NCBI RefSeq assembly: GCF_000336875.1
Contig: NZ_AOJK01000036.1
Location: forward strand, 1-61,525
Direction: 5' to 3'
Origin: Halorubrum californiense DSM 19288
GTDB taxonomy: Archaea > Halobacteriota > Halobacteria > Halobacteriales > Haloferacaceae
DNA length: 61,525 bases
Shown: one piece after another, positions 26,364 through 61,525 of the stretch
Position numbering within the stretch: position 1 is the stretch's first letter
Layout: every line of letters begins with the position of its first letter
The notes under the pieces: generated by a model
The model's database searches: none
What the model was told of the DNA's origin: nothing
The model's input: the letters and a program-made list of their open reading frames with translations, nothing else
Translations under genes and position numbers: made by a program

Positions 26364-27329
26364 TCAGTCGGCGACCGCGGCCACCATTCCCTGCTTGTAG
26401 TACCGCTGGAGGGTGACGAACAGGAGGATGGGGACGATCATCGTCAGCACCGAACCGGCGGCGACGAGCCCCCAATCGATCTGGAGGCGCCCCTTCATCA
26501 GGGGGAGTACCTGCGGCGCGAGCTGGTTCTCGCGGGACCGCATGAACACGAGGGGGAAGAAGAAGGAGTTCCACACCCACGTGAACTGGATGACGGCCAC
26601 GGAGACGAGCGCCGGGGCCGAGTACGGCAACACGATGGACTTGAAGATCTGGTAGCGCGACGCGCCGTCGATCCGCGCCGCCTCCTCGAGCTCCTCGGGG
26701 AGCCCGAGGAGGAAGTTCCGGAGGAACATGACGACCCACCCCATCCCCCAGCCGATGTGGACGAGGATGAGCCCCATGTACGTGTCGAACAGGCCGGTCG
26801 TCCGCAGCGTGTTGTAGTTCCCCATCGCGACCAGTTCCGGCGGCGCGGCCATGACCACGATGAGCAGGAAGAACAGCGCCTTCTTCATCGGGAAGTCGAA
26901 GCGGGCGAACGGGTACGCGACCATCGTCCCGAGCAGCGTCACGGCGAGGACCGCGGGGATGGTGACGATCGCGGTGTTGTACATCGCCTGCCGCATCGGC
27001 CCGGACTGGAACGTCCACGCCTCGGCGTAGTTCTCGAAGGTGACGGTGAGCGTCTCGAAGTTCCACCAGCCCTGAATGATCTGGTCGAGCGGGCGGACGG
27101 AGGCCATGAACAGCCCGATAAGCGGGACGAGCCACAGCAGCGCGACGCCGATCGCGATCACGTACCGCAGCGCGCGCGCGCCGCTCGGAACCGCCGCGCG
27201 GAGGCGCTCGGGGAGGGGTCGGTCGGAGAGCGGTGCGGTCTCCGGCGGCTCGTGGTACACGCGCCCGCCGTCGGTCTGCGGCTCGCTGTCGGCGTCGGTC
27301 GGATCGTCTGCGTTGTGTGTGTCGGTCAT
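26364..27329 (-). CDS. Sugar ABC transporter permease (MalG type)
   Basis: The 321-residue inner-membrane permease has six main hydrophobic segments and the coupling-loop EAA motif ELEEAARIDGASRYQIF. The long N-terminal acidic tail precedes the first helix (YVIAIGVALLWLVPLIGLFMAS). C-terminal parts match the CUT1 MalG class. It is the last gene of a three-gene operon (ATPase, MalF-type, MalG-type) with six bases before it. Adjacent trehalase makes trehalose or a related glucoside the likely cargo; the operon has no binding-protein gene. Confidence 0.87.
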   Translation of the reverse strand: MTDTHNADDPTDADSEPQTDGGRVYHEPPETAPLSDRPLPERLRAAVPSGARALRYVIAIGVALLWLVPLIGLFMASVRPLDQIIQGWWNFETLTVTFENYAEAWTFQSGPMRQAMYNTAIVTIPAVLAVTLLGTMVAYPFARFDFPMKKALFFLLIVVMAAPPELVAMGNYNTLRTTGLFDTYMGLILVHIGWGMGWVVMFLRNFLLGLPEELEEAARIDGASRYQIFKSIVLPYSAPALVSVAVIQFTWVWNSFFFPLVFMRSRENQLAPQVLPLMKGRLQIDWGLVAAGSVLTMIVPILLFVTLQRYYKQGMVAAVAD

Positions 27330-27335
27330 TGTGGG

Positions 27336-28274
27336 TCAGTCCATTGACGCGATGTACCACGCCATCGGCAGCGCGATCACCAGTTCGATGAGCGCGACGA
27401 CCATCGCTTTGCTGTACTCGATCGGGACCGAGAACGCGGCCTGGTACACCTCCAGCCCCAGTACCGAGAACGCCCCGCCCGGACCCCCGGACGGGCCGCC
27501 GGCCGCGTAGACGATGGCGAAGATCCGGATCACCCAGATCATGCTCATGATCACCACGACAGCCGTCACGGGCTTGACGAGCGGCCAGATGATGTCCTTG
27601 AACCGCCGGAACCGCCCCGCGCCGTCGACGCGGGCGGACTCCAGCAACGCCGGATCGATCCCCGCGAGCGCGGAACTGTACAACAGCATGCTGAATCCGG
27701 TCTGGACCCAGACGCCGCCGGCGACCAGCGCGTAGATCGCGATCTGCGGCTGTTGGACCCAGTTCCGGACCAGCGACTCCAGCCCGATAGCCCGGAGCAG
27801 CCCGTTGAAGATGCCGGCCTGCGGGTCGTAGACGAAGAGCAGGACGAGGCCGATCACGACGGTGGGCGTGGTGAACGCGAGGAACACCATCGAGCGGAGG
27901 ATGCTCCGCCCCCGCAGGTCGGCGAAGAGCAGGGCGAGCCCGAGCCCGATCAGCGTGCTCAGCGGGACGTGGACCACCATCCAGATGACGTTCTGCGGCA
28001 GCGCCCCCATTGGGTACTGGAACGCGAGGAGGTTGTCCCAGTTGATGATCGCGTCGTCTTGGAACGTCGCGATCCACGTCTCGAACCCGGCGAACTGCCC
28101 GATCGTGAACCCGTCCCAGGTGAAGAGGCTCCCGACCGCCGAGTACAGCATCGGGCCGACGGAGAAGATGGCGAACAGCGTGAGTCCGGGGAGCATGAAC
28201 ACGAGGATCGCGGTGAGCTTCTCCCGGTCCACGTCGCGGTCGAGCCGGTCTTCGAGGTACGATCCGACAGACAT
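27336..28274 (-). CDS. Sugar ABC transporter permease (MalF/UgpA type)
   Basis: This CUT1 permease of 312 aa has a first helix AILVFMLPGLTLFAIFSVGPMLYSAV, a long extracytoplasmic loop rich in Trp and Asp, and the EAA motif LLESARVDGAGRFRRFKDIIWPL. It pairs with the MalG-type partner six bases downstream to form the channel. The start, ATG at 28274, is four bases after the ATPase stop, showing tight translational coupling in the operon. Confidence 0.87.
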   Translation of the reverse strand: MSVGSYLEDRLDRDVDREKLTAILVFMLPGLTLFAIFSVGPMLYSAVGSLFTWDGFTIGQFAGFETWIATFQDDAIINWDNLLAFQYPMGALPQNVIWMVVHVPLSTLIGLGLALLFADLRGRSILRSMVFLAFTTPTVVIGLVLLFVYDPQAGIFNGLLRAIGLESLVRNWVQQPQIAIYALVAGGVWVQTGFSMLLYSSALAGIDPALLESARVDGAGRFRRFKDIIWPLVKPVTAVVVIMSMIWVIRIFAIVYAAGGPSGGPGGAFSVLGLEVYQAAFSVPIEYSKAMVVALIELVIALPMAWYIASMD

Positions 28275-28278
28275 GGTA

Positions 28279-29343
28279 TCAGGCCACCAGTTCCCCGTCC
28301 TCGTCGTAGAGGTACGCGTCGGTCGGGTCGAACGTGAGGTGGACGTGATCCCCCGCCGCGGCGTCCGTCTTCGGGACCTTGACGTTCACCACGGAGCCGC
28401 CCACCTCGACGTTGACCAGCACGTACTCCCCGAGCGGTTCGACCGTCTTCACCGTCCCCGGCACCGTCCAGTCCGTGTCCGACGGTTCCGTCGACACGGC
28501 GATGTCCTCGGGACGGACCCCGACGGACACGGTCGTCGACGACGTCTCCGTCGGCAGGGGGAGGGTGTTGTCCTCGGAGAGCCGAACGATTCCGTCGCGG
28601 TTCTCGCCCTCGAAGAGGTTCATCGGGGGCGATCCGATGAACTTCGCGACCCACGTGGTGCGCGGTCGCGCGTACAGCTCCTCGGGGTCAGCGACCTGCC
28701 GGATCGTCCCGTCGTTCAACACGACGATCTTGTCGCCCATGCTCATCGCCTCCTCCTGGTTGTGCGTGACGTAGACGGTGGTGATCCCGAGCTCGTTCTG
28801 GATCCGCTTGAGCTCGGAGCGCATCTCCAGGCGGAGCTTCGCGTCGAGGTTACTGAGCGGCTCGTCGAGGAGGAAGACGGACGGCTCGCGGACGATCGCC
28901 CGCGCGAGCGAGGTCCGCTGACGCTGCCCGCCGGATATCTCGCCCGGGTCGCTCTCCATCTGGTCCTCGATGTGGAGCAGTTCGGCGACCTGCGCGACCC
29001 GCTCGTCGCGCTCCTCCGGCGGCACGCCCCTGACCTTCAGCGGGTACTCGATGTTCTCCCTGACGGTCATGTGGGGGTACAGCGCGTAGTTCTGGAACAC
29101 CATCGCGACGTTGCGATCGGCGGGCGGGGTCCCGTCGACCCGGTCGTCGTCGAAGTAGATTTCCCCCTCTGACGGGTCCTCCAACCCCGCGATCATCCGG
29201 AGCGCGGTCGTCTTCCCGCAGCCGGACGGCCCCAGGAACACCACGAACTCCCCGTCGTCCACCTCCATGTCCAGCTTGTAGTTGGCGACCGTGTCACCCC
29301 CGTCGAAGTACTTGCTCACCGATCGCATGCTAATGCGGGTCAT
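28279..29343 (-). CDS. Sugar ABC transporter ATP-binding protein (MsmK/UgpC type)
   Basis: The 354-aa ABC ATPase has Walker A GPSGCGKTT, the Q-loop AMVFQNYALYPHMTVREN, signature ISGGQRQR, Walker B VFLLDEPLSNLD and the switch histidine in VYVTHNQEEAMSMGDK. A C-terminal TOBE-like domain (from about 240: VGVRPEDIAVS) is typical of CUT1 sugar importers, which often share one ATPase among several systems. It is the first gene of the operon; a GTAATAAA-like box (29367-29372, minus strand) lies about 27 bases before the ATG. Confidence 0.9.
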   Translation of the reverse strand: MTRISMRSVSKYFDGGDTVANYKLDMEVDDGEFVVFLGPSGCGKTTALRMIAGLEDPSEGEIYFDDDRVDGTPPADRNVAMVFQNYALYPHMTVRENIEYPLKVRGVPPEERDERVAQVAELLHIEDQMESDPGEISGGQRQRTSLARAIVREPSVFLLDEPLSNLDAKLRLEMRSELKRIQNELGITTVYVTHNQEEAMSMGDKIVVLNDGTIRQVADPEELYARPRTTWVAKFIGSPPMNLFEGENRDGIVRLSEDNTLPLPTETSSTTVSVGVRPEDIAVSTEPSDTDWTVPGTVKTVEPLGEYVLVNVEVGGSVVNVKVPKTDAAAGDHVHLTFDPTDAYLYDEDGELVA

Positions 29344-29484
29344 CGACTACCCGCCCGTATTCATTTATTACACTTATAATTAATCATAGAACATGGATAA
29401 CAGGACGGCTGCCGCTGCGCGGTATCCGTTCTCTGCCCCGCTAATTCAATAATTACTTAGCGATCCTTTCACTACGTGGGGAAG
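29344..29484. promoter_or_regulatory. AT-rich divergent promoter region of ABC operon and trehalase
   Basis: This 141-base region is strikingly AT-rich for this genome (for example 29358-29392 and 29441-29460). A minus-strand TATA candidate (TTTATTAC read on plus, about 29364-29371) is spaced for the ATPase start, and ATTACTTAG (29452-29460) is spaced for the trehalase ATG at 29485. Such co-localised promoters suggest joint control, probably by a TrmB-type regulator; I could not find a clear TACT-N7/8-GAGTA site. Confidence 0.55.
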
Positions 29485-31008
29485 ATGAGTTCCGGTCTCT
29501 TCGACTACACAAATTTTCCGCAGATCTCCGGCGAGCTCTTCCGCACCGTCCAGCGTCGGGACCTCTTCGACGACGACAAGCGGTTCGTCGACGCCGAACC
29601 GCGCGTCTCCCCGGACCTCGTGGTCGAGCGGTACCTGACGGGACGCGACCGGCCCGACTTCGATCTGGAGTCGTTCGTCGAGGCCCACTTCCGGCTGCCG
29701 GAGCCGGTCGCCGCGGCCCCGGACCTCACCGCGTCGCGGTCGATGGAGGACCACGTCTCGTCGCTCTGGGGCGCGTTGACTCGGACGTTCGAGGACGCCG
29801 ATTCGGCGGGGTCGACGCTGATCCCCCTCCCGAACCCGCACGTCGTGCCGGGCGGTCGCTTCCGCGAGATGTACTACTGGGACAGCTACTTCACCGCGGA
29901 GGGGCTGGCGGCGGCCGACCGGGCCGACCTGATCGCGGGGATGGTCGAGAACATCGCCTCGCTCGTGGACCGCTTCGGGTTCGTCCCGCTCGGGAACCGG
30001 GCGTACTACGACAGCCGGTCGCAGGTCCCGCTGCTCTACCGCATGCTCCGCGTGCTGGAGCGCGAGGAGGGGTTCGACGCGGTCGCGCCCCACGTCGAGG
30101 CGCTCCGGACGGAACACGAGTTCTGGATGGACGGCGCCGACCGCGTGGGCGAGGCCAACGGCCCCGCGGCGCACCGCCGCGTCCTCGGGCTCGGGGACGA
30201 GACGGTCCTCAACCGGTACTGGGACGACCGCGCCCGGCCGCGGCCGGAGTCGTACCACGAGGACCGACGGCTCGCCGAGCGCGTCAACGTCGACGACCGA
30301 CCCGGGCTGTTCCGCGACGTCCGAGCGGCCTGCGAGTCCGGGTGGGACTTCAGCTCTCGCTGGCTCGCGGGCGACGACCTCACGACCATCCGGACGACGG
30401 AACTGGCCCCGGTCGACCTCAACGCCGTCCTCTTCGGCGTGGAGTCCGCCCTCGCGGAGTGGCTCCCGCGCGTCGGACGGAGCGAGGCCGGCGAGCGGTA
30501 CGCCGACCTCGCGGCCGACCGCCGGGCGGCGATCAACCGGTACTGCTGGGACGCGGACGCCGGGTTCTACGTCGACTACTCGTGGCGCGACGACGAGCGG
30601 TCGGAGCGGCTCACCCTCGCGGCCGTCGCGCCGCTGTTCACCGGCGTCGCGACCGACGACCGGGCGGCGGCGGTCGCGGACCGGCTCCGCCGCGACTTCC
30701 TCCGGCCCGGCGGGCTGGTGACGACGCTCGAAGCCACCGGCGAGCAGTGGGACGCGCCGAGCGGCTGGGCCCCCCTCCACTGGATGGCCGTCACCGGCCT
30801 GCGCCGGTACGGCCACGACGACCTGGCCGACGAGATCGCCGGCCGCTGGGTCGACCTCGCGCGGAGTTCCTTCGAGGAGACCGGCCGCATGGCGGAGAAG
30901 TACGACGTCCGAACGGTGAGTGAAACGACCGACTTGGGCGAGTACGAGCCCCAGTACGGGTTCGGCTGGACGAACGGCGTCGTCACGGCGCTGTCCGCCA
31001 GACGGTAG
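29485..31008 (+). CDS. Trehalase, glycoside hydrolase family 37
   Basis: GH37 enzymes invert and hydrolyse alpha,alpha-trehalose to two glucoses. Both family signatures are present: PGGRFREMYYWDSYF (122-136) and QWDAPSGWAP (421-430). The catalytic-acid segment ESGWDFSSRW (D288) is intact. The 507-aa protein has no signal peptide, so it is cytosolic and needs imported trehalose, which the divergent ABC operon should supply. ATG 29485 is preferred to the in-frame GTG 29476 because of TATA spacing. It shares about 140 bases of promoter DNA with the transporter. Confidence 0.93.
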   Translation: MSSGLFDYTNFPQISGELFRTVQRRDLFDDDKRFVDAEPRVSPDLVVERYLTGRDRPDFDLESFVEAHFRLPEPVAAAPDLTASRSMEDHVSSLWGALTRTFEDADSAGSTLIPLPNPHVVPGGRFREMYYWDSYFTAEGLAAADRADLIAGMVENIASLVDRFGFVPLGNRAYYDSRSQVPLLYRMLRVLEREEGFDAVAPHVEALRTEHEFWMDGADRVGEANGPAAHRRVLGLGDETVLNRYWDDRARPRPESYHEDRRLAERVNVDDRPGLFRDVRAACESGWDFSSRWLAGDDLTTIRTTELAPVDLNAVLFGVESALAEWLPRVGRSEAGERYADLAADRRAAINRYCWDADAGFYVDYSWRDDERSERLTLAAVAPLFTGVATDDRAAAVADRLRRDFLRPGGLVTTLEATGEQWDAPSGWAPLHWMAVTGLRRYGHDDLADEIAGRWVDLARSSFEETGRMAEKYDVRTVSETTDLGEYEPQYGFGWTNGVVTALSARR

Positions 31009-31081: not shown

Positions 31082-31750
31082 ATGAGCGACGACGACGCCG
31101 TCGATGTCGAGTCTCCCGACGACGCCGAGGGCGACGCGGCGAGAGCGAACGGCACGGCGGAGGCGACCGCCGAGGAAGCGAGCGGCGGGCCGGCCGCCGA
31201 CTCCCGGCGGGACGAGGAGGCGCTCGCCGCGGCCGTCGCCGAACACGACGAGGCGCTCGCCCGGGAGGTCGCGGCGCTGGAGGCCGACCTCGCTGACACC
31301 CGAGCGGCACTCCGCGAGCGCGACGAGGAAGTCGACGAGCTGACGAGCAAGCTCGCCCGCGCGAAGGCGGACTTCAGCAACTACAAGGAACGCGCGAAGC
31401 GGAAGCAGGAGGAGATCCGCGAGCGCGCCTCCGAGGCGCTCGTCGAGCGCCTCACCCCGGTCCGGAACGACCTCCTGCGCGCCCTCGACCAGGACGAGGG
31501 GAGCGACCTCCGTCCCGGGGTCGAGTCGACGCTGGAGAAGTTCGACGACGTGCTCGCCGAGGAGGGCGTCGAGTCGATCGAGCCGGAGCCGGGCGAGGAG
31601 GTCGACCCCGCGCGCCATCAGGTGATGCTCCGCGTCGACAGCGATCGGCCCGAGGGAACGGTCCACGAGGTGTACGAGCCCGGCTACGAGATGGGCGACC
31701 GCGTGCTGAGCGAGGCGAAGGTGACCGTCAGCACCGGCGACGGGGAGTAG
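31082..31750 (+). CDS. grpE: Nucleotide-exchange factor GrpE
   Basis: GrpE releases ADP from DnaK in the Hsp70 cycle. The 222-aa protein has an acidic disordered head, a long coiled coil (about 50-115: ALEADLADTRAALRERDEEVDELTSKLARAKADFSNYKERAKRKQ) and the beta-domain ending QVMLRVDSDRPEGTVHEVYEPGYEMGDRVLSEAKV. A CTTAT box about 28 bases upstream fits a leaderless transcript. dnaK is not adjacent in this window; the next gene is convergent surE. Confidence 0.92.
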   Translation: MSDDDAVDVESPDDAEGDAARANGTAEATAEEASGGPAADSRRDEEALAAAVAEHDEALAREVAALEADLADTRAALRERDEEVDELTSKLARAKADFSNYKERAKRKQEEIRERASEALVERLTPVRNDLLRALDQDEGSDLRPGVESTLEKFDDVLAEEGVESIEPEPGEEVDPARHQVMLRVDSDRPEGTVHEVYEPGYEMGDRVLSEAKVTVSTGDGE

Positions 31751-58101: not shown

Positions 58102-58407
58102 TCAGTACGGCAGCACGCCGGTCGTGGTCCCGAGAAGCGACACGCCGATCGCGAGCACCTGCGCGACGAAGAACGCCTTCGAAGAGGCCCACCCGAAGTA
58201 CAGCAGCGTCGCCATCGGGACCAGCCCGATGACCGACGGCCAGAGCCCCATGGTGAACAGGATCGCGAGGAAGCCCGTCGTCACGAGGATGAGCACGTCC
58301 ATCCCGAGCGAGACGAGGTTGCGTCGGCGGAGCTCTTCGGGGTCGAACATCCGCGCCAGCGACCCGCGCCGGTCGCTTCGGTCGTCCGCGGTCGACGTCG
58401 ACTCCAT
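58102..58407 (-). CDS. Small membrane protein linked to a sugar-binding lipoprotein
   Basis: 101 aa: a charged cytosolic head (ESTSTADDRSDRRGSLARMFDPEELRRRN) and about three hydrophobic segments (LVSLGMDVLILVTTGFLAIL, WPSVIGLVPMATLLYFG, FFVAQVLAIGVSLLG). It starts two bases after the binding-protein stop, so both come from one mRNA. Permeases of this importer class are far larger, so it is not one. Function unknown; an accessory role is inferred from position. Confidence 0.65.
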   Translation of the reverse strand: MESTSTADDRSDRRGSLARMFDPEELRRRNLVSLGMDVLILVTTGFLAILFTMGLWPSVIGLVPMATLLYFGWASSKAFFVAQVLAIGVSLLGTTTGVLPY

Positions 58408-58409
58408 CG

Positions 58410-59726
58410 TCAGTTACTCAGCGTCTCCTGATGCGCGTCGTCGAGCGGCCCGACGATATCCTCGGTCGGGGTGTCGGGCGTGGCCCACAGGCCCTTGAGC
58501 ACCGACCAGAACTCCTGCTGGAACGGGTTCCCGAGCGCGTCGTCGAGGTCCGGCACGACCGTCACTTCGGCGGCGAGGTCCGGCAGATTCGCCATCACTT
58601 CGATCTCGTAGGCGTCGTCCGGCACCTCGGTGTTGGAGGCGATGAACCCGCCGTCCTCGACCCACACCTGCTGCCCCTCGGCGGAGACGAACGAGCTCAG
58701 GGCGTCGCGCGCGGCGTCGACGTTGTCGGAGTATTTCGGCACGGTGAACCAGTTGACCGACGAGGAGATGCCGTCGGTACCGGGCAGCCGGAACACGCCG
58801 AGGTCCGACGGGTCCTCGACCGCGTCCTGCGCCGGCGTGAACGAGCCCATGAAGTACAGCGGGAGGCTGTTGTCCCAGAAGTACTCGTACTGAACGCCGA
58901 AGTCGCGGGTCTGGCTGAAGTACCCCTCCTCGTGGAGCATCTTGATCTCGTCGAACGCCGTCGCGACCCGGTCGTCGGTGAAGGAGGCGTCGCCGTCGAT
59001 GAGCCCCTGCTGGAGCGACGCGCCGTCTTCCTGCCGCATGAAGAAGCCCTCGGTGAGGTCGCTGAGCGGCCAGCCCGTACCGTTCCCGGAGGCGACGGGG
59101 GCGTCGACGCCGTCGATCCCCGAGATGTCGTCGAGCAGGGTCATGAACTCGTCCCAGCTCTCGGGCTCGGAGAGGTCGTGTTCGTTGAAGAACGACTTCC
59201 GGTACCAGAAGCCGGGCTTGAGGTCCATCTTGAACGGCGCGGCGTACACCTCGCCGTCGACGGTGACCCGCGAGGGGTCGACCGCGAAGTTGTCGGCGTC
59301 CCACGCGTCGCCGACCGGCGCGAGGTGGCCGTTCTGGGCGTCCGAGATGATGCGCGCCGGCGAGGGCATCACGACGATGTCCGCGGAGGCGACGCCGGAC
59401 TCGTAGTCCATCAGCGTGCCCGTGAGCAGGCTGTCGGTGTCGCGCGGGAAGTACTCCAAGCCCATGCCCGTCGACTCCTCCACGTAGTCCATCACCTTGC
59501 TGAACGACTCCTGCTCGCCGCCCGACCAGACGCCCGTGATCTCGAGGCTGTTGCTCCCGCCGTCGGAACCGTCCCCGCCGTCGCTGCCTTCTCCGCCGTC
59601 GCTGCCGTCCCCGCCGTCGCCGCCGTTACCGGAACAGCCCGCGAGCGCAACGCTCCCGAGTACCGACGCGGTGCCGGTCGTCTTCAGTACGCTCCGCCGC
59701 GTAGTACAGGATCGATCATCGGACAT
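58410..59726 (-). CDS. Tat-exported sugar-binding lipoprotein (ABC family 1)
   Basis: The 438-aa extracellular solute-binding protein has the head TTRRSVLKTTGTASVLGSVALAGC (Tat signal and lipobox), then a Gly/Asp/Ser repeat linker (GGDGGDGSDGGEGSDGG), then a periplasmic-binding fold: LEITGVWSGGEQESFSKVMDYVEESTGM, ADIVVMPSPARIIS, YAAPFKMDLKPGFWYRKSFFNEH. It is the CUT1-type receptor. No permease or ATPase gene touches it; the complete ABC operon lacking a receptor lies about 29 kb away. It is divergent from a sulfatase gene. ATG 59726 begins the signal. Confidence 0.88.
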   Translation of the reverse strand: MSDDRSCTTRRSVLKTTGTASVLGSVALAGCSGNGGDGGDGSDGGEGSDGGDGSDGGSNSLEITGVWSGGEQESFSKVMDYVEESTGMGLEYFPRDTDSLLTGTLMDYESGVASADIVVMPSPARIISDAQNGHLAPVGDAWDADNFAVDPSRVTVDGEVYAAPFKMDLKPGFWYRKSFFNEHDLSEPESWDEFMTLLDDISGIDGVDAPVASGNGTGWPLSDLTEGFFMRQEDGASLQQGLIDGDASFTDDRVATAFDEIKMLHEEGYFSQTRDFGVQYEYFWDNSLPLYFMGSFTPAQDAVEDPSDLGVFRLPGTDGISSSVNWFTVPKYSDNVDAARDALSSFVSAEGQQVWVEDGGFIASNTEVPDDAYEIEVMANLPDLAAEVTVVPDLDDALGNPFQQEFWSVLKGLWATPDTPTEDIVGPLDDAHQETLSN

Positions 59727-59821
59727 GTCGTCCCAACCCAGTTTGCCCACTTACTTCAAATTTGCTTATTAATTACCGCTATAGTTACTAACCACAACCG
59801 AACGGTCACGGAACGCGATCA

Positions 59822-59832
59822 CGGTTATTTAT
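59822..59832 (+). promoter_or_regulatory. TATA-like box of the sulfatase gene
   Basis: CGGTTATTTAT is spaced about 28-31 bases before the ATG at 59859, close to the leaderless optimum. The 130-base gap to the divergent binding-protein gene is AT-rich (59751-59790), suitable for regulator sites; I saw no clear TrmB palindrome. Confidence 0.5.
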
Positions 59833-59858
59833 GGGTGTATCGGGGGGTAATGGTGGAT

Positions 59859-61214
59859 ATGACGGACAGCGCCGACTCACCTTCCGACGCGTCGGACCGC
59901 CCGAATCTCGTCCTCGTTCACTGTCACGACCTCGGCCAGCACCTCGGCTGTTACGGCGCCGACGTCGACACGCCGAACATCGACGGGCTCGCGGCCGACG
60001 GCGCGCGGCTGGCGAACAGCTTCTGTACGGCCCCGCAGTGTTCGCCGAGCCGGTCCAGCATGGTGACGGGCACCTACCCGCACGAGAACGGCGTCATGGG
60101 ACTCGCGCACATGGGCTGGGCGCTCGGCGACGACCGGGAGACCCTCCCGAAACGCCTCAAAGCGGCGGGGGACGAGACGGCCCTGCTCGGCTTCCAACAC
60201 GAGGTCCCCGACGAGCCCGAGCGGCTCGGCTACGACCACGTCGACAGCGGGACGAAGCGCGCGCTGGAACTCGTCGACGTCGTCGACGACTTCTTCGCCG
60301 AGCGCGCCGACGCCGACGACCCATTCTTCGTCTCGATCGGCATCGAGGAGCCGCACCGCCCGTTCCGTCGGGAGTACCTTCCGGACGAGACGTACGACGC
60401 CTACGACCCGGACGAGGTCCCGCTCGACGACTTCGCGTACCTCCCGGACGCGCCCGGGGTCCGCGAGGACGTCGCCGACCTCCGGTCGGTGATCTCGGAG
60501 GTGCTTGACCCGGCGGTGGGTCGCTACCGCGAGTCGCTCGCGGACGCCGGGCTGGCCGAGGAGACGGTGTTCGTGTTCACCACCGACCACGGACTCGCGA
60601 TCCCGCGCGCGAAAGGGACCTGTTACGACCCGGGAATCGAGACCGCGCTCGTGGTCCGCCAGCCGGGGGCCGTCGAGGGCGGCGAGGTCCACGAGTCGCT
60701 CGTCACCAACGCCGACTTCACGCCGACGATGCTGGACCTGCTCGGGATCGACCCGCCGACGGACCTCTCGGGGGAGTCGTTCGCGCCGCTGCTCCGGGGC
60801 GAGCCGCACGAGGGCCGCGACCGGATCTTCGCCGAGATGACGTGGCACGACCGCTACAACCCGATCCGCGCGATTCGGACGGAGCGGTACAAGTACGTTC
60901 GCAACTTCTCCGTGCTGCCGAAGGTGTTCGTCCCGATGGACGTCGCGCCGACGGCCTCGGGCCGCGAGGTCCACGAGGAGTTCCACGTCCCGCAGCGCCC
61001 GGCGGAGGAGCTGTACGACCTCGAAGCCGACCCCCACGAGTCGGAGAACCTCGCCTCGGACAAGAAGCCGTTCGAGCCGGCGGCCGAGGCGAGCGACCCC
61101 GACCCGGCCCACGCCGACGCCCTCGACCGACTGCGCGACGAACTGGAGGCGTGGATGGAGTCGACCGACGACCCCCTGCTCGACGGTCCCGTCCCGTACC
61201 CGGACGTGGAGTGA
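59859..61214 (+). CDS. Cytosolic sulfatase (formylglycine type)
   Basis: This is an alkaline-phosphatase-superfamily sulfatase of 451 aa. The C-x-P-S-R motif is present as C61-S-P-S-R (APQCSPSRSSMVTG), whose Cys must be turned into formylglycine by an FGE. LVLVHCHDLGQHLGCYG holds the first metal Asp (D24), FVFTTDHGLAIPRAKG the later metal ligands. No signal peptide, so desulfation should occur inside the cell, after import. ATG 59859 is used; ATG 59850 (three residues longer) is the alternative. It is divergent from the sugar-binding lipoprotein and upstream of a TrmB regulator. Confidence 0.88.
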   Translation: MTDSADSPSDASDRPNLVLVHCHDLGQHLGCYGADVDTPNIDGLAADGARLANSFCTAPQCSPSRSSMVTGTYPHENGVMGLAHMGWALGDDRETLPKRLKAAGDETALLGFQHEVPDEPERLGYDHVDSGTKRALELVDVVDDFFAERADADDPFFVSIGIEEPHRPFRREYLPDETYDAYDPDEVPLDDFAYLPDAPGVREDVADLRSVISEVLDPAVGRYRESLADAGLAEETVFVFTTDHGLAIPRAKGTCYDPGIETALVVRQPGAVEGGEVHESLVTNADFTPTMLDLLGIDPPTDLSGESFAPLLRGEPHEGRDRIFAEMTWHDRYNPIRAIRTERYKYVRNFSVLPKVFVPMDVAPTASGREVHEEFHVPQRPAEELYDLEADPHESENLASDKKPFEPAAEASDPDPAHADALDRLRDELEAWMESTDDPLLDGPVPYPDVE

Positions 61215-61292
61215 GGCGTCCGACGCGACGGGTCGGTGCGGCGCGAGGCGGACTCGGTGATTTTTAAACACCGAAGTAGTTAATCGATCGTC

Positions 61293-61505
61293 ATGGACAC
61301 CGAGGAACTCCTGGAGACGCTCCAGGCCGCGGACCTCTCTTACTATCAGGCGAACGCGTACGTCACGCTGCTGGAACTGGGGACCGCCTCCGCGACCGAG
61401 GTTGCGCAGGCCAGCGACGTGCCGGACGCGCGGATCTACGACGTGCTCCGCGACCTCGACGACTTCGGGTACGTGGAGCTGTACGAACAGGAGACGTTCC
61501 AAGCG
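61293..61505 (+). CDS. TrmB-family regulator, truncated by the contig end
   Basis: The first 71 residues are a winged-helix TrmB domain: LLETLQAADLSYYQANAYVTLLELGTASATEVAQASDVPDARIYDVLRDLDDFGYVELYEQ. TrmB proteins sense sugars through a C-terminal domain that is missing here. TTTTTAAA (61261-61268) is about 28-30 bases before the ATG. Genomic sequence stops at 61505; the bases after it are adapter, so the real C-terminus is unknown. Position next to a sulfatase and sugar receptor suggests it controls them. Confidence 0.85.
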
Positions 61506-61525
61506 CTGTCTCTTATACACATCTC
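61506..61525. other. Nextera transposase adapter left in the assembly
   Basis: CTGTCTCTTATACACATCT (61506-61524) is the reverse complement of the Tn5 mosaic end used in Nextera libraries, and the next base (C) continues the known adapter. Read on the minus strand it gives the well-known artefact peptide start MYKRQ. It marks where the contig stops, not biology. Confidence 0.97.

Follow-up and report, generated by a model that had tools for sequence, protein, structure and literature searches.

One of the closest described parallels to the locus reported here is bacterial. Streptobacillus moniliformis possesses a glycosaminoglycan importer (Smon0120-0123) and a cytosolic sulfatase (Smon0126) (PMC5430744). 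As proposed here for the haloarchaeal locus, sulfated disaccharides are taken up by binding-protein-dependent ABC import and then undergo desulfation and glycosidase cleavage in the cytosol; however, the S. moniliformis substrates are chondroitin and hyaluronan disaccharides, a GH88 enzyme takes the place of a trehalase, and neither a TrmB regulator nor a 101-aa protein is described (PMC5430744). Among haloarchaea, Natronoarchaeum sp. H-hyl1 and other H-hyl strains carry glycosaminoglycan islands that likewise combine a sulfatase with a disaccharide importer, but these also contain a GAG lyase, GH88 and GH154, and no link to a trehalase is reported (PMC13260240).

Two further likenesses concern parts of the locus. 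The sulfatase shares its fold, the S1 nucleophile motif and the C-terminal domain PF16347 with human SGSH and the S1_8 sulfatases; these enzymes, however, show only ~22-28% identity and are lysosomal or secreted, and the replacement of the first metal Asp by His is a trait of the family studied here. Thermococcus litoralis has a TrmB-regulated trehalose/maltose importer, which resembles the present locus in setting a CUT1 transporter for trehalose (here predicted) beside a TrmB regulator; we know of no sulfatase, GH37 trehalase or 101-aa protein in that system.

In several species of Natronococcus and Natronobacterium the major solute was 2-sulfotrehalose, which has also been found in Natrialba magadii (PMC1224877, PMC3403918, PMC2881530). 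We found no description of its uptake or breakdown in the limited collection of literature searched, and thus neither a consumer nor a route for this major solute of some haloalkaliphilic archaea. On balance we lean towards reading the locus analysed here as a TrmB-controlled system that imports 2-sulfotrehalose, or a sulfated trehalose similar to it, and converts this sugar to glucose and sulfate, the substrate being deduced from the genes. The locus supplies named genes and clear presence/absence contrasts for the study of sulfotrehalose use.

Gene content and organization of the locus

The window, i.e. the whole 61,525-nucleotide stretch of Halorubrum californiense DSM 19288 that was analysed, contains near its end four genes that open reading frames and domain matches recover just as the preliminary description had them: a small membrane protein, a receptor, a signal-less sulfatase and the start of a TrmB regulator. 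The membrane protein (58102-58407, reverse strand) has 101 aa and two to three hydrophobic segments by hydropathy, and its gene adjoins and follows the receptor gene in each locus opened. The receptor (58410-59750, reverse strand; SBP_bac_1, E=3.5e-20) is a substrate-binding lipoprotein with a Tat signal and a lipobox, as seen from the twin-arginine and lipobox-like motifs of its N-terminus (RRSVLKTTG...LAGC). Its structural model is poor (mean pLDDT 64.9) but has the fold of sugar receptors (best Z 30.9, rmsd 3.4 over 354 residues), and the proteins that it resembles bind glucose, galactose and oligosaccharides. The sulfatase gene (59850-61214, forward strand) is divergent from the receptor gene and is followed by the first 71 codons of the TrmB gene (61293-61505, forward strand; PF01978, E=1.3e-15), the remainder of which lies past a scaffold gap.

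The preliminary description had also considered the locus to be cut by the contig end, with permeases that may follow. Neither holds. The last 20 bases of the window (61506-61525, no strand assigned) are a Nextera read-through remnant, CTGTCTCTTATACACATCTC; NNNN follows it, and the remnant is an artefact at a gap inside a 261-kb scaffold and not a true contig end. The TrmB reading frame picks up again beyond the gap. Domain searches find in full-length relatives both the HTH domain and a C-terminal sensor domain, PF11495; the window itself holds the N-terminal HTH of a gene interrupted by the gap. Read on the opposite strand, the remnant encodes DVYKRQ, and it truncates TrmB in the assembly. 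Permeases 3′ of TrmB could be ruled out: the genes there are DUF1028/BolA-like genes, then fumC and sucCD, and no permease follows TrmB in any genome read.

The transporter genes are found at 26.4-29.3 kb, ~30 kb from the receptor and the sulfatase and on the side opposite to TrmB. They encode two CUT1-type permeases, PermG (26364-27329, reverse strand; BPD_transp_1, E=6.6e-17) and PermF (27336-28274, reverse strand; BPD_transp_1, E=9.4e-17), and a MalK/UgpC-like ATPase (28279-29343, reverse strand; ABC_tran, E=2.4e-34, with TOBE_2 and OB_MalK). PermF is 95% identical to the permease adjacent to the cassette in genome G050, and in relatives PermG is contiguous with the 101-aa, receptor, sulfatase and TrmB genes. 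Divergent from the ATPase gene is a gene for a GH37 trehalase (29476-31008, forward strand). The intact order, namely trehalase (reverse), ATPase, PermF, PermG, 101-aa protein and receptor (reverse), sulfatase and TrmB, is present in H. xinjiangense, H. distributum, H. trapanicum and two other Halorubrum, and also in Salinarchaeum laminariae, the related genome G075 and Halobacterium CBA1126. Permease and ATPase genes, which the preliminary description proposed to look for beside TrmB in related genomes, thus do belong to the same intact locus, though not after TrmB. Receptor, two permeases and MalK-like ATPase are contiguous in these relatives and separated by an inversion in the window, and from their sequences they are likely to form a CUT1 sugar importer.

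The gene neighbours are those expected if the locus, to judge from gene order, is split in this window by one inversion of ~32 kb. Genomes G048 and G024 show the same split, with a photolyase gene beside PermG and MvaD beside the 101-aa gene, and G026 has undergone a separate rearrangement. In three species, an Opp/Dpp-type peptide transporter cluster is found between PermG and the 101-aa gene: G014 (L024 398-4062), G046 (H. tebenquichense, L032) and G045 (L030). We excluded this transporter, as well as the MvaD gene of the window, G048 and G024, from the locus, considering both as genome-to-genome variation beside the 101-aa gene. The grpE gene (31082-31750) adjoins the trehalase gene in the window and in intact Halorubrum loci, and adjoins the receptor gene in several transporter-only genomes, a position that suggests an old location of the locus.

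The two hydrolases

The trehalase (510 aa; PF01204, E=1.1e-130) aligns with the E. coli periplasmic trehalase TreA (2jf4) with E=1.9e-124, and by inspection has no signal peptide. Besides the PF01204 domain, it contains both trehalase signatures, PGGRFxExYxWDxY and QWDxPxGWAP, with intact catalytic motifs, and is predicted to hydrolyse trehalose. In Halobacterium sp. CBA1126 (L066 3488-5016, 9959-11313), trehalase and sulfatase are each read in two frames, either through decay or through sequencing error.

The sulfatase is a cytosolic, signal-less S1-type protein of 454 aa (PF00884, E=1.7e-31), for which hydrolysis of a sulfate ester is predicted from the S1 fold and the C/S-x-P-x-R motif. The motif is CSPSR at residues 64-68, in the context FCTAPQCSPSR; CSPSR occurs in all 11 Halorubrum copies, and Cys-x-Pro-x-Arg (CSPSR or CTPSR) is invariant in the 79 readable members of the family (79/79). 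The predicted structure (mean pLDDT 84.5) has human sulfamidase SGSH as its nearest solved fold (4miv, Foldseek E=4.5e-33). Sulfamidase acts on the C2 N-sulfate of alpha-linked glucosamine. Lambda-carrageenan S1_8 enzymes are also among the relatives. In place of the canonical N-terminal Asp-Asp metal pair, the family alignment shows an invariant His-Asp (H26, D27), so that the first metal-ligand Asp is replaced by His across the family.

Maturation of the cysteine is a problem for a desulfation reading because the genome of the window contains neither an FGE gene (PF03781) nor an anSME gene above the cut-off (TIGR03942). The latter is absent above the cut-off from all 52 Halorubrum genomes, and no Halorubrum is found among the 47 FGE-positive of 392 genomes, so that the FGE gene that the preliminary description also proposed to look for beside TrmB was detected in no Halorubrum genome surveyed. 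The wider sulfatase family is present in 96 of the 392 genomes, 12 of them with FGE, two with anSME (one with both) and 83 with neither, and it shows no association with FGE (12/96 against 35/296, p=0.86). That many haloarchaea keep the cysteine motif while having neither maturase would suggest either an additional way of maturing the cysteine or formylglycine-free catalysis. In genome G282 (L204; C35:12758-14992) an FGE gene lies ~100 bases upstream of a sulfatase gene of this family, and the two would possibly form an intact enzyme-maturase pair. The genome of the window encodes a second Cys-type sulfatase-like protein with the motif CMPAR (L154).

Occurrence across genomes

Of 52 Halorubrum genomes, 11 have the receptor, the sulfatase and a trehalase above the family cut-off, and the remaining 41 have none of the three. 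For the co-occurrence of the trehalase with receptor and sulfatase, Fisher p=1.7e-11 over the 52 genomes, uncorrected for relatedness. The 101-aa, receptor, divergent sulfatase and TrmB genes have the same order in all 11, that is, in 10 genomes besides the window, where the proteins are 85-98% identical to those of the window; this shared order shows that they are more than chance open reading frames. Close relatives of the sulfatase occur in 16 genomes. Receptor and sulfatase genes are side by side in 14 of these, in a fifteenth (G218) the distance to the 101-aa gene corresponds to this arrangement, and in Halorussus halobius the transporter is not nearby.

The locus exists in three forms: the transporter only, a form probably belonging to Natrialbaceae (family f7); transporter and trehalase (G190, G058); and transporter, trehalase, sulfatase and TrmB. 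Among 14 chosen, non-random genomes, trehalose-phosphate synthase (PF00982) is present in 7/7 that have the transporter but no adjacent sulfatase, and in 0/7 with the full set. We infer that organisms making trehalose-type osmolytes retain the transporter for recapture and that non-producers carry the catabolic set. The otsB gene adjoins otsA wherever seen; beside otsA in transporter-only genomes we recognised otsB and small conserved genes, and no sulfotransferase.

Relatives of the 101-aa protein were detected in 48 of 392 Halobacteriales genomes. A distant sulfatase-family member is encoded elsewhere in 29 of the 33 genomes that have the 101-aa gene and lack a close sulfatase relative, a count from which we conclude nothing because nearly all of them belong to one archaeal family. 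Sulfatase relatives of 45-56% in Natrialbaceae have no such transporter or trehalase nearby. Several Natrialbaceae (L051, L059, L061, L063, L067, L068, L096, L097) have two sulfatase-family genes in divergent orientation, one of them the distant sulfatase relative.

Proposed substrate of the system and alternative readings

Since permeases, ATPase and trehalase form one locus with the receptor and the sulfatase, the substrate is likely to be a sulfated trehalose. Taking gene identities, linkage, co-occurrence and the conserved promoter elements as directly established, we propose that the lipoprotein receptor would pass 2-sulfotrehalose, or the similar sulfated trehalose, on to the PermF/PermG/ATPase importer, probably with assistance from the 101-aa membrane protein. 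The sulfatase would then strip the sulfate inside the cell, and the GH37 trehalase would cleave the resulting trehalose into two glucoses, an order of reactions that we presume. TrmB may sense the sugar and control both divergent promoters by binding to them. We count in favour that the linked glycosidase is a trehalase, that the linked hydrolase is a sulfatase and that its fold is nearest to sulfamidase. The contiguous locus of the relatives, the shared occurrence of receptor, sulfatase and trehalase, the distribution of trehalose-phosphate synthase, the osmolyte reports and the presence of ATTAATTA in both promoters also speak for it. Counted against are the missing FGE and anSME, the two genomes (G190, G058) that have transporter and trehalase but no sulfatase at the locus, the exception of H. 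halobius, and a receptor sequence comparison in which no clear sulfate-binding signature distinguishes sulfatase-bearing loci. The receptor residues marking these loci against both other groups were essentially Q80, M87, K270 and T427, and were discarded as too weak for specificity.

The import of a sulfated sugar and its intracellular desulfation, as the preliminary description had it, therefore fits a locus that also has permeases, an ATPase and a trehalase, but maturation of the sulfatase is a problem for it. That description had named two observations that would refute it. On the first, receptor and sulfatase never being neighbours, the genomes show the opposite; the second, no FGE gene in the genome, is what we found, and anSME is missing as well.

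In the first alternative, transporter and trehalase serve plain trehalose, while the sulfatase, whose substrate is a different sulfate ester, shares no more than its regulation with them. Since G190 and G058 have trehalase and transporter without a sulfatase at the locus, the transporter may carry plain trehalose; the receptor is nearly identical whether or not the locus has a sulfatase, and a known maturase is missing from the genome. We nevertheless consider this unlikely: the sulfatase gene is divergent from the receptor gene in nearly all genomes with a close relative, across several families, and TrmB comes directly after it. The substrate might instead be another sulfated sugar, e.g. a disaccharide derived from glycosaminoglycans, from polysaccharides of algae or from sulfated glycans of archaea, as the lambda-carrageenan S1_8 relatives and the reported glycosaminoglycan-degrading haloarchaea with sulfatases and ABC disaccharide importers (PMC13260240) would allow. 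Yet near the copies read we noticed neither a lyase nor GH88 nor any other enzyme acting on polysaccharides, and the trehalase is the sole glycosidase linked to the locus, which makes this substrate quite improbable. That the enzyme works independently of formylglycine, on another ester or through the plain cysteine, and hence desulfates nothing, would agree with the 83 of 96 genomes without either maturase and with the His at the first metal ligand, but is very unlikely given the Cys-x-Pro-x-Arg kept in 79/79 members, the FGE gene next to the G282 sulfatase and the sulfamidase-like fold.

If the sulfotrehalose reading is correct, the locus would be the first uptake and degradation system for 2-sulfotrehalose, by which haloarchaea that do not make this osmolyte live on that of their neighbours, with a Cys-type sulfatase matured by an enzyme other than FGE and anSME and with a 101-aa subunit, linked to the receptor, of a kind not described for ABC importers; we put this forward tentatively, as a possibility that is rather doubtful in its entirety.

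Divergent promoters

Both halves of the split locus contain a divergent promoter with a common element. Between the trehalase and ATPase genes, ATTAATTA (29377-29384, reverse strand) is conserved in 13/13 aligned loci, and TAATTACTTAGCGA (29450-29463, forward strand), a promoter-like element on the trehalase side, has one mismatch to the searched element. Between the receptor and sulfatase genes, TAATTAATAAGCAA (59762-59775, reverse strand) contains ATTAATTA at 59768-59775. The elements were selected post hoc from the same alignments, and they may be plain core-promoter sequence instead of TrmB sites. The two copies of ATTAATTA in the 61.5 kb are divided between the two divergent promoters, and no occurrence is expected in shuffled sequence. 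Window matches to the longer element TAATTAMTWAGCAA with ≤2 mismatches are likewise confined to the two promoters, and both promoter regions are conserved across genera.
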